A stretch of 64,000 nt of DNA from Planctomycetaceae bacterium. Its GTDB lineage: Bacteria; Planctomycetota; Planctomycetia; Planctomycetales; Planctomycetaceae. A program made the position numbers and the translations under genes. This document shows positions 60,607-64,000 of the stretch, piece by piece. The notes under the pieces are model-generated. The model did not search any database. It was not told the origin of the DNA and worked only from the letters and a program-made list of their open reading frames with translations. The first letter of the stretch is position 1. Every line of letters begins with the position of its first letter. The DNA lies in assembly GCA_016795145.1 (NCBI GenBank), contig JAEUII010000324.1, positions 1-64,000 of the forward strand, in the 5' to 3' direction.

Positions 60607-60843
60607 TCAGGCGGGACAACACAGGAGGGTAAGACAGCAGAATGAGAGGCTCAATCTGCAACCCCATTTTGGCAGCGAAACACCTGATCAACAAGCAGAA
60701 TCACAACCACCCCACGGAATGCCGCGAATCCGGAATCTCACCTTCAAATGCCCAACGCGCCCGTCCTCAAGATGTGTCTCCCTGAGTGAGCCGCAAGGCG
60801 CTAGCCGCGGGTTCCATTAAGAACAAAGAATCAGGCTCTTGAT
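60607..60843. other. Intergenic region with array-flanking element
   Basis: About 240 bases upstream of the DUF1549 gene. Around 60785-60813 lies GAGCCGCAAGGCGCTAGCCG, which contains CTAG and resembles another short planctomycete repeat. Just before the array, ATCAGGCTC matches the sequence between units D and E of the right-hand array (62705-62713), so the left end of the array looks like a recombination joint. Confidence 0.5.
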
Positions 60844-61571
60844 CTAGCCTGCGAACCGGACGCTCCAGTCGGACAAGCCGACATGGTGGCGAAACAAACC
60901 GCCCCCGATGGGCTCGCCCCATCGGAGCGGCCGGTTCACAGCTAGAATCGACTCACAACGAGAAACGTACCGTTTCTGCAACAGACCCGGTCTGGGAGCG
61001 GTGGATTCGCGTTGTCGCAATCTAGCCTGCGAACCGTTCGCTCCAGTCGGCCAAGCCGACTTGGTGGCGAAACAAACCGCCCCCGATGGGCTCGCCCCAT
61101 CGGAGCGGCCGGTTCACAGCTAGAAACGACTCACAACAAGAAACGTACCGTTTCTGCAACAGACCCCGACGGGCTTGTCCCGTCGGTGAATGAGGTTGAG
61201 AAGCTAGCCTTGGAACCTCTGCTTCAGACGGGACGAGCCCGTCTGGGAGCCTTGGATTCGCGTCGTCGCGATCTAGCTTGCGAACCGTTCGCTCCAGTCG
61301 GACAAGCCGACTGGGGGCGAGCAAATCCGCCCCCGATGGGCTTGCCCCATCGGAGCAGCCGGCTCACAGCTAGAACCGATTCACAAAAAGAAACGTACCG
61401 TTTCTGCAACAGACCCCGACGGGCTTGTCCCGTCGGTGAATGAGGTTGAGAAGCTAGCCTTGGAGCCTTTGCTTCAGACGGGACAAGCCCGTCTGGGAGC
61501 CTTGGATTCGCGTCGTCGCGATCTAGCTTGCGAACCGTTCGCTCCAGTCGGCCAAGCCGACTGGGGGCGAT
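60844..61571 (+). repeat. Left REP array (hairpin units A, B, C, D, E; 250-bp period)
   Basis: Hairpin centres repeat at A 60868-60882, 61046-61060, 61297-61311 and 61547-61561; B 60905-60925, 61083-61103 and 61333-61353; D 61166-61186 and 61416-61436; E 61225-61245 and 61475-61495. The first unit lacks D and E, leaving CAGACCCGGTCTG. A, B, D and E are the same element: A and E on the plus strand, B and D inverted. Each has CTAG 27-28 bases from the loop centre. C is a different palindrome, AGAAACGTACCGTTTCT (60961, 61139 and 61389), placed between the CTAGs of B and D. Confidence 0.93.
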
Positions 61572-61665
61572 GTCAGCAAACGAAGCACCAATACCTACTC
61601 ACAACGGACTAAGTACGATATAGTTTATTACTCCTAATCAATTTCGCCAGAAAAGGAGTTGCCCG

Positions 61666-62457
61666 TTGTCGTCCCTCAATTGCTATCGCGCTGACACAAC
61701 GACTGCCGCGTACTCGTTACGCTGGTCCTGGACCGGTTGGCCTTCGCTCGGCTCAATGCCAAGCTTGAGCGAGGACGACTGGCGTACGTTGGAAGCTGCC
61801 TGGGAGCAAGACGGTATCCGGCTGTTGGAACGAAGGTGCCAATCCGACTATTGGCAGGCGACGGTCAGTACGAAACCTTCCTCTGATCCAAGTCTCATCG
61901 TCGCTCGGCTCAAAGGTCGCATCGATCATCGATTCCGTTCCCAAAAGATACCATTCAAGTTTTCTCGCAAAGTTTCGCTCCGCGCGATTGGCAGGAATAC
62001 CACGGCTGATGTTCAAGACTACATTCATTGCCAGGTGGACTCCTCGCAATTCTGTAGCTCGGAATTTGCACAAGAGCTAAAGCAGTTCACTCGCGTTTGG
62101 CACGATCAGCAGCTTCACGCGCCGATCGAAGTTGGCAGTGGCCGATACTGGTACTTGCTGCATCTGGTGTTGGTCGTCGATGGAAGGCATAGGATCGGCA
62201 ACCTCGATTTTTTGGGGCACCTGTTTGAGGCTTGCCAGGCTATCGCAATGGATCGCGGCTATCTGCTGGGAGGACTTTCTGTCATGCCCGACCATCTTCA
62301 CGTATGCCTGCGTGGCGCAGTGGCTGACTCGCCGGAGACGATTGCGATTGGTTACATGAATGAGTCGTGTCGGAAACTTGGAATCATGGGGCTGTGGAGA
62401 CCGAGTTACTATGTCGGGACGACCGGAGCCTACAACATGAACGCTGTGCGAGGATAG
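61666..62457 (+). CDS. REP-associated Y1 (HUH) transposase, probably truncated at the catalytic tyrosine
   Basis: TTG at 61666 is a good start: AAAGGAG lies 7 bases upstream. The 263-residue product has an N-terminal half with LIVARLKGRIDHRFR and a C-terminal Y1 domain with the HUH motif in SVMPDHLHVCL (His210, His212). The end reads WRPSYYVGTTGAYNMNAVRG and stops. In IS200/IS605-type enzymes the matching segment continues with the catalytic Tyr (pattern IR-x-Y-I-x-x-Q) directly after the residue that ends this protein. The TAG stop (62455-62457) also coincides with the CTAG position of the first REP downstream. REP hairpins flank the gene on both sides, as for RAYT genes in other bacteria. 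Activity is doubtful. Confidence 0.85.
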   Translation: MSSLNCYRADTTTAAYSLRWSWTGWPSLGSMPSLSEDDWRTLEAAWEQDGIRLLERRCQSDYWQATVSTKPSSDPSLIVARLKGRIDHRFRSQKIPFKFSRKVSLRAIGRNTTADVQDYIHCQVDSSQFCSSEFAQELKQFTRVWHDQQLHAPIEVGSGRYWYLLHLVLVVDGRHRIGNLDFLGHLFEACQAIAMDRGYLLGGLSVMPDHLHVCLRGAVADSPETIAIGYMNESCRKLGIMGLWRPSYYVGTTGAYNMNAVRG

Positions 62458-62845
62458 CCGTTAAGCCTCTGCTTCAGACGGGGCAAGCCCGTCTGGGAGC
62501 CTTGGTTTCGCGAGGTTGCTGTCTCGCCTGCCAACCGTTCGCTCCCGTCGGGCGAGCCGACTGGGGGCGAGCCGACTGGGGGCGAGCAACTCCGCCCCCG
62601 ATGGGCTTGCCCCATCGGAGCGGCCGGTTCACAGCTAGAACCGACTCACAACGAGAAACGTACAGTTTCTGCAACAGACCCCGACGGGCTTGCCCCGTCG
62701 GTGAATCAGGCTCCTGAGCTAGCCTTGGAACCTCTGCTTCAGACGGGACAAGCCCGTCTGGGAGCGTTGGTTTTGTGTGTTCGCGATCTAGCTTGCGAAC
62801 CGGACGCTCCAGTCGGACAAGCCGACCGGGGGCGAAACGAGCCGA
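62454..62845 (+). repeat. Right REP array
   Basis: The units follow the same order as in the left array: E 62475-62495, A 62547-62561, B 62598-62618, C 62654-62670 (one mismatch), D 62681-62701, E 62740-62760 and A 62812-62826. The first A is followed by a tandem duplication of a 15-base piece (GCCGACTGGGGGCGA). The first E has ATAG in place of CTAG, and the first A has CTCG, so the units next to the transposase are degraded. E to E distance is 265 bases, which equals 250 plus the duplication. Confidence 0.93.
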
Positions 62846-62861: not shown

Positions 62862-64000
62862 TCAGTCTCGAATCAGCAGGGAGCGAAGATGTTCTGACTG
62901 GAGTACGTCTTCGAATTCGATGGGCCTCCCGTCAATGGTCACGGTGGAATGCACAAGGCGAACTCCGTGGCTGTAATCGACGTAGGTGGCGAAGTGCCTG
63001 GTGTACAACGGCTGGATGGGTTGGCCGTGTGGTAAGTGCCAGCCGTAGATGGCGACGTGCTGCAGATCTTTCAGCTGGGATGTTTGTACGACGTCCTTTT
63101 TGTGACCGGCGATCAGGGTTGAATGATCAAGTTGTTTCAGAGCTTCTTCGATCAACTCATGATGTGTCAGGAATGTCGAAGGAAGTTCACGATCCTGCGT
63201 CATCGGAGCCGGTGTCAGCCTGGCGTTGGCGGCGTCGAAGACGATGTCGGACAGAAGAGTCGTCATGAGTGTGCAATGAGTTTCGCCCGCAATCCTGGCT
63301 GCGGTTTGCGGTTGCATGGGGATACGAAATGAGTCGCTGTCGGATCCCAGACTCAGAACATCTCGCCCGACACGAACTTACACATCATGATCTGTGCCAG
63401 CTGTGTCAGTCGCTCGATAGCGAATCAGTGCGAGTTCCCTGGAAGCTTGTGGCATGTTGCCGGACAGAAGTTCGCTGGCGATGCAGTCTTCACGATCCCT
63501 GCCGACCAGTCGTTCCAGCTCCCCGGCAAGTTCTCGTCCGCCACGCATGGATTCAAGACGCGGCGGAAGTGAAAGCTCCAGTTTCGGTGCATCGACAACG
63601 AGTTCCGCGTTCCACCGAGACGGAGCACGCAACGGAGCACCTGGAATGTACGGCTGATACACTGGCCCATCACCGAGTTTTCCCCACGAATTTTCCTGTG
63701 GGGTTCCGAATGTCATTCCGGCGATGAGTCCGTTCATGTCTCCCACGAGTGCCGTGTGCAGTATCTTGTTGTCCGGATTGGGATGTCGAAGCAGAACGAT
63801 TTGACGTCCTTCATCCTGTGTTCTCAGGAAAGGCCCCGTGACGTCATCCTTCAACATTCGTGTTTGAGCAAACCCGTTCCGCATTCGCTCCGTCGCACGC
63901 CATGTTCCACCATCAGGTCCGACCACCTTTCGTCCATTCAGCGTGATTTCACGATCGTCATAGGCAATGCTGACAAGTCGAAGTTCAGAATCCTGTCGGA
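62862..64000 (-). pseudogene. Conserved protein gene with in-frame TAA, 5' end off the right edge
   Basis: The minus-strand frame runs from the right edge to a TAA at 63378-63380, then continues in the same frame to a TGA at 62862. The C-terminal part (PMQPQTAARIAG, TFLTHHELIEEALKQL, LIAGHKKDVV, VAIYGWHLPHGQPIQPLY, YVDYSHGVRLV) and the upstream part (SGNMPQASRELALIRY before the stop; VLSLGSDSDSFRIPM after it) match, in order, one conserved family I know from other bacteria. The TAA falls inside a continuous block (DHDV-stop-VRVGRD). Most likely it is a nonsense mutation, for which AAA to TAA would suffice, or a sequencing error. A restart at ATG 63317 would give a 151-residue protein. Function unknown. 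Confidence 0.75.

Follow-up and report, generated by a model that had tools for sequence, protein, structure and literature searches.

A locus within a 64,000-nucleotide stretch of DNA from a Planctomycetaceae bacterium (hereafter, the window) most probably represents, with a probability that we put at roughly 0.7, an element of REP type whose transposase is a fused Y1 (HUH) protein, a single chain with one composite trans active site. The observations behind this reading are a regular hairpin array, a protein composed of two Y1 halves with reciprocal motif loss, hairpin arms of conserved spacing and units derived from the element by deletion; from these we infer the trans geometry, the binding of hairpins by both domains, the single-site chemistry and the mobility of the element.

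The hairpin array of the window

Hairpin alignment revealed 17 hairpins (six A, four B, three D and four E) between positions 60842 and 62837, for which the initial annotation had proposed at least 16. With > and < marking the plus and minus orientation, they follow the order A>B<(C) / A>B<CD<E> / A>B<CD<E> / A> gene E> / A>B<CD<E> / A> (Table 1). The regularity of this arrangement was confirmed by 271-nt direct repeats starting at 61050, 61300 and 62565 (91, 100 and 90% identity, respectively), by further direct-repeat families of 126 nt (five copies) and 154 nt (four copies) with 250-bp spacing, and by the TRF tool, which reported a period of 250 over 60990–61570 with 93% matches. The first period is only 178 bp long (TRF, 60842–61166), as D and most of E are deleted, and it looks like the product of a repeat-mediated deletion. 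When folded as single-strand DNA, two 250-bp units gave z-scores of −7.5 and −6.3 against dinucleotide shuffles, with none of 200 shuffles folding equally well. Hairpins A and B are clear homologs of the form TCTAGC..GAACCG..CGCTCC-hairpin-GGGGGCG, and the tags preceding the hairpins of the window are CTAG/ATAG variants.

The A hairpin before the gene and the E hairpin after it are in register with the 250-bp array, so the gene with its leader (61571–62457) occupies the place of B, C and D, which agrees with the earlier view that both sides of the array keep the same phase and that a transposase is set inside one period of a regular compound unit. The module itself, previously placed at 61572–62453, had to be redrawn, as the actual open reading frame spans 61666–62457 and begins with TTG behind AAAAGGAG. 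Palindrome C (AGAAACGTACCGTTTCT), which had been counted among the components of the unit, was rejected as a general component: it is replaced by a non-palindromic spacer in the copies on contig C292, and its profile scores are low elsewhere (about 11 bits on C104 and C121, 16 bits on C15). Judging from these sequences, C is a local spacer.

Table 1. Features of the array and of the transposase gene, in window coordinates.
Feature	Position	Strand	Basis or remark
Hairpin A1, tag TCTAGC	60842–60895	+	Repeats, hairpin alignment, profile map
Hairpin B1	60896–60950	-	A1>B1< inverted pair, near-palindromic ends TCTAGC..GCTAGA
Spacer C1 and deletion scar	60951–61019	.	D 5' arm joined to E 3' arm
Hairpin A2	61020–61072	+	Hairpin alignment, profile map
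Hairpin B2	61074–61128	-	Hairpin alignment, profile map
Palindromic spacer C2	61139–61155	.	AGAAACGTACCGTTTCT; local to the window array
Hairpin D2	61155–61200	-	Hairpin alignment, profile map
Hairpin E2, tag GCTAGC	61203–61256	+	Hairpin alignment, profile map
Hairpin A3	61270–61319	+	Hairpin alignment, profile map
Hairpin B3	61326–61375	-	Hairpin alignment, profile map
Hairpin D3	61405–61450	-	Hairpin alignment, profile map
Hairpin E3	61453–61506	+	Hairpin alignment, profile map
Hairpin A4	61520–61570	+	Directly 5' of gene leader; hairpin alignment, profile map
Gene leader	61571–61665	+	Expected B< D< arm missing
ACCTACTCACAACG in gene leader	61593–61606		Looks like a relic of the B–D linker
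AAAAGGAG	61651–61658		Likely ribosome binding site
Fused double-Y1 transposase gene	61666–62457	+	263 aa, TTG start, TAG stop
N-terminal Y1 domain (aa about 1–133)	61666–62064	+	HUH lost (SDYWQAT)
Tyr119 codon; Gln123 codon	62020–62022; 62032–62034	+	N-terminal domain
C-terminal Y1 domain (aa about 148–263)	62107–62454	+	
His210 codon; His212 codon	62293–62295; 62299–62301	+	C-terminal domain
Hairpin E5	62455–62508	+	Tag GATAGCC supplies the transposase stop codon
Hairpin A5	62522–62587	+	15-bp triplication (GGGCGAGCCGACTGG, 62550–62587)
Hairpin B4	62589–62643	-	Hairpin alignment, profile map
Spacer C4	62654–62670	.	
Hairpin D4	62670–62715	-	Hairpin alignment, profile map
Hairpin E6	62718–62771	+	Hairpin alignment, profile map
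Hairpin A6	62787–62837	+	Right end of the array; hairpin alignment, profile map

To the left of the array (60783–60814) there is a different dispersed palindromic repeat, GAGTGAGCCGCAAGGCGCTAGCCGCGGGTTC, found near-identical at several sites in relatives of the same genus. The region adjoining the array on the other side (62862–63926) carries two minus-strand open reading frames, which may be one frameshifted gene.

A protein of two Y1 domains with divided catalytic motifs

In the 263-aa protein of the window, Pfam and NCBIfam each detect two Y1 stretches (Pfam Y1_Tnp, 1.9e-14). The N-terminal domain has a catalytic-type YIxxQ helix (Tyr119, Gln123) without HUH, while the C-terminal domain carries HUH as PDHLH (His210/His212) and the chain ends about where its own tyrosine would be expected. 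HUH and tyrosine are thus not combined within one domain: the former occurs only in the C-terminal half, the tyrosine and glutamine only in the N-terminal one. Affiliation with the TnpA Y1/HUH superfamily is indicated by Pfam, by the N-terminal domain alone and by Foldseek. Scanned alone, the N-terminal domains of 39 of 41 family members match Pfam Y1_Tnp, and that of the window protein does so at 7.9e-6, with the match reaching the end of the profile. The N-terminal profile aligns with the ISDra2 TnpA over nearly its full length (E-value 5.7e-7), its Y-x-x-x-Q helix coinciding with the C-terminal helix of ISDra2 that ends in YIESQ. The whole-family profile matches IS200 TnpA (E-value 1e-13), the best stretch lying in the C-terminal domain, which stops before the tyrosine helix. 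A direct comparison of the N- and C-terminal profiles is weak (hhalign probability 8%, not significant); the case for a duplication comes from the separate matches of the two halves to Y1 proteins. The AlphaFold model (mean pLDDT 94.2, pTM 0.91) found ISDra2/IS608 TnpA as its top Foldseek matches (ISDra2, E-value 1e-6).

The family alignment comprised 70 rows, 69 of them distinct (the window protein appears twice, as the window and as locus L114), and a 50-row alignment was also used. The 70-row alignment was built from 60 loci of a contig scan and from matches in 49 of the 398 genomes of the class; the contig scan used a C-terminal motif, which biases the 60-locus set towards the motif around Tyr256. 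Tyr119, Gln123, His210 and His212 are each present in 69 of the 70 rows, every exception being a gap or an odd letter, and the divided layout of the motifs recurs in all 69 comparable homologs, mostly planctomycete and as little as 24–30% identical. Residue 64 of the N-terminal domain is glutamine in 60 of 70 rows, and the N-terminal HUH is gone. Most chains end 5–15 residues past residue 256, and some are longer without having a Y-x-x-x-Q helix. A truncation of the window gene at the catalytic tyrosine was considered as well and rejected, as the chains of relatives likewise stop at or shortly past this point and it is the N-terminal domain that contains the tyrosine.

In IS608, the active site is built in trans, with the tyrosine of one monomer and the HUH of the other (PMC5934647). 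As the catalytic motifs are divided between the two halves here, the protein resembles a pseudodimer made of a single chain, with just one active site, and its simplest reading from sequence would be a fused dimer in which one of the two sites was kept. The initial annotation had called the gene a RAYT, and this identification had to be replaced by that of a fused double-Y1 protein. The window protein is not matched by the NCBIfam model REP_Tyr_transpos (NF047646) at E-values up to 1, and a scan of the whole genome with that model listed 15 places, all of them below the cut-off and none of them the fused gene.

The protein could nevertheless be imagined as a conventional RAYT that has gained an N-terminal domain, in which catalysis would proceed in cis in the C-terminal domain through Tyr256 and the N-terminal domain would only bind DNA. 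The E. coli TnpAREP is indeed active as a monomer that contains both HUH and tyrosine (PMC6006769), and Tyr256, within YYVGTxGxY, is nearly invariant (68 of 70 rows). However, it is phenylalanine in the two remaining members, and a large array of hairpins is present in at least one of these (L117); Tyr256 lies about 8 residues before the usual tyrosine position, and TnpAREP (4er8) is a poor match to the family profile (E-value 0.3). Tyr119 and Gln123, on the other hand, are without exception among the rows that can be judged and align to the Y-x-x-x-Q helix of ISDra2, which makes catalysis through Tyr256 quite improbable.

Units and arms at other loci

A search of the 8.1-Mb genome, proposed in the initial annotation, gave 38 matches to a 773-bp query, and about 20 other contigs carry related units; an A–B query gave 57 matches, many of them weak. 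B<D<E>A> occurs twice around a Uma2-like gene on C292 and three times in tandem on C54. B is the first hairpin of these units and A the last (one C292 copy is preceded by a partial A), which sets the outer ends at the 3' ends of hairpins B and A. On C104 and C121, B<D<A> forms 180-bp tandem arrays at the contig ends (loci L033 and L034), possibly one array broken by assembly. At L030 (3200–4650), two BDEA units about 1.2 kb apart flank a small gene, whose product we take to resemble Uma2-family proteins.

The commonest dispersed form is the single direct pair E>A>. The genome also harbours a second multicopy Y1 transposon of about 390 aa, with SNHFH and YVDLNPIRA (loci L042, L155, L040, L039, L041 and L043), and copies or deletion remnants of it carry E>A> at their conserved right end, in the 3' region (C76, C197, C115, C122, C185 and C144). 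Since many E>A> pairs sit in this transposon, their spread is no independent evidence of REP mobility, and the candidacy of such pairs as independent mobile units is weakened. It is unlikely, though worth considering, that the repeat was dispersed in this genome by this transposon and not by the fused protein, as its copies on C403 and C253 lack E>A>, the units on C292, C54, C180, C199 and C103 show no such neighbour homology beyond the repeat, and arms directly flank the fused gene in relatives. Such dispersal would concern the spread only and is compatible with an element run by the fused transposase.

Relatives show the arrangement B<D<-gene-E>A>, in which D precedes and E follows the gene (L020/L062, L064, L066 and L050). 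Judging from these and from the other loci, the natural unit is B<D<E>A>; the A-B-C-D-E unit of the initial annotation was thus largely right as a compound architecture and wrong in its boundaries. At the window gene, the left B–D arm is missing or rearranged, with only a short linker relic left. In L062 and L064, the array unit beside the gene comprises the upstream arm and the initial 19 bases of the aligned gene region and then continues directly with the stop codon and downstream arm; in two units of Rhodopirellula solitaria (L073) the missing part reaches from 28 bases before the gene to 8 bases after it. By sequence comparison, these units are internal-deletion derivatives of the element. 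In R. solitaria nearly all units lie at the locus of the gene itself, and in the L050 genome they occur at the gene locus and one other; the copy numbers in these two genomes are modest, and no excision or insertion event was seen. Comparison of 8 kb of DNA with 17 relatives of the genus, aimed at an empty site, yielded no usable orthologous junction, only patchy pieces of 65–75% identity.

The hairpins of relatives had been expected to be related in sequence, and this holds for L050 (78% identical), which has the same E-hairpin core; in distant relatives, whose proteins are about 42% identical, the sequences differ and the position, pairing and spacing of the hairpins are kept. A strong hairpin lies within 220 nt downstream of the gene at 49 of 67 family loci (13% of control windows), and two such hairpins at 25 of 67 (1.1% of controls). 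The spacing of neighbouring hairpins peaks at 65–79 nt on both sides of the family genes, which bear arms of co-oriented hairpins about 70 nt apart; a clean downstream pair at 60–82 nt was detected by the hairpin finder at only 30 of 69 loci, and some loci lack any. An nTAG, mostly GTAG, precedes the hairpin centre by 20–40 nt in 67 of 143 downstream hairpins (47%, against 7% of random windows), and among these 143 hairpins 59 TAGs lie exactly 28–30 nt before the centre. The enrichment of hairpins and the offset of tags show that the gene is flanked by GTAG-tagged REPs in the manner of the RAYT class. In the window and several relatives, the first tag downstream provides, with its TAG, the stop codon. 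This monomer of about 70 nt forms longer runs at L086, L088, L092, L093, L095 and L117. At L118, L119, L127 and L050, arm copies including the last transposase codons lie upstream of the gene, showing that an amplified piece can hold coding sequence.

The fused gene is present in one copy in the genome, without the multiple copies with defined ends that characterize IS200/IS605 elements, and most genomes of the class search list one or few matches, some of them fragments. This low copy number, the rearranged left arm of the window copy, the resemblance of the 178-bp period to a repeat-mediated deletion, and the few, mostly local arrays of the two other genomes would also suit a decayed or domesticated transposase which does not cleave and binds hairpins structurally or as a regulator, with the arrays growing by replication slippage and recombination between hairpins. 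We regard this as having little likelihood: that precisely the residues of catalysis, distributed over the two domains, are fully conserved down to 24–30% identity would be unexpected without catalysis, and the arms retain their spacing and tags while the hairpin sequences diverge.

Proposed mechanism and relation to known systems

In the proposed mechanism, the N-terminal domain would provide the nucleophilic Tyr119 and the metal-binding Gln123 on its last helix and the C-terminal domain the HUH histidines His210 and His212, together forming one composite site like the trans site of an IS608-type dimer, whereas both halves would have lost their part of the second site. In this reading the element ends on either side in an arm, in which two co-oriented hairpins follow each other at a distance of about 70 nt and a GTAG-like tag precedes each of them. 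The two domains may bind both hairpins of an arm while the DNA is single-stranded, on the lagging strand at a fork, and the single site would cut and rejoin one tag at a time. Such cutting could copy or delete whole hairpin units, giving the 70-bp and 180/250-bp tandem arrays, and the BDEA units, the element minus its gene, would be products of the same cutting. A single-chain enzyme reading two hairpins with one tag per cut would thus account for the fixed spacing, the tandem growth and the deletion units.

Like ISDra2/IS608 TnpA, the fused protein has the Y1/HUH fold, matched by both halves, a Y-x-x-x-Q helix and hairpin ends. The known TnpA proteins are homodimers of about 150 aa with two sites, whereas here one site is predicted in a single chain with reciprocal motif loss, and the ends of IS200/IS605 elements have one hairpin each, in contrast to the inverted two-hairpin arms found here. 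With RAYTs and REPtrons the family shares, usually, one or few gene copies, as well as GTAG-tagged flanking hairpins and dispersed cognate hairpins, and the A>B< pair consists, like REPINs and BIMEs, of two inverted REPs. RAYTs, however, are single-domain monomers, and their class signatures include Y-x-x-x-NP of class 2 (PMC6006769), unlike the invariant Y-x-x-x-Q of the fused family. TIRtrons, with TIRYTs and double inverted repeats (P. putida 607 / P. fluorescens 4255), resemble the present element in having a Y1 gene between inverted compound ends and related repeats in dimers or clusters (PMC3733652). Their ends differ, consisting of degenerate REPs and unrelated stem-loops, or GGGGWSAS; according to the same paper, every TIRYT has retained HUH as well as the catalytic tyrosine, and a fused double domain is not named there (PMC3733652). 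The gene-less units of L062, L064 and L073 recall MITE-like deletion derivatives, but lie mainly in tandem beside the parent gene, with few dispersed copies in R. solitaria. A search of the open literature found no fused or tandem Y1 transposase, and within this scope novelty is provisional.

Taken more broadly, the evidence leads us to favour, with some reserve, a widespread planctomycete HUH family that would have arisen from an IS200 dimer by gene fusion and complementary loss, with one obligate trans site reading the two hairpins of a fixed 70-nt arm, separate from the RAYTs. If so, it would be an independent route from a transposase to a REP-processing enzyme and would suggest that the association with REP hairpins arose more than once, with a simple domain duplication linked to a doubled DNA substrate. 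Models of IS200-type action, in which active sites are shared between two monomers, hinge on the question of which of the subunits contributes the tyrosine; a naturally occurring version with one chain and one site would be a ready-made experiment on the capacity of one site, which may cut and rejoin but perhaps not perform full transposition. The system is testable, since named isolates carry the fused gene (Rhodopirellula solitaria CA85, R. sallentina SM41 and Rubripirellula obstinata). Homologs were also found on contigs labelled Armatimonadetes, Lentisphaerae, Myxococcales, Kiritimatiellae, Deltaproteobacteria and Nitrospinia (L059, L060, L061, L068, L071 and L089), reflecting either horizontal transfer or misbinned MAGs.
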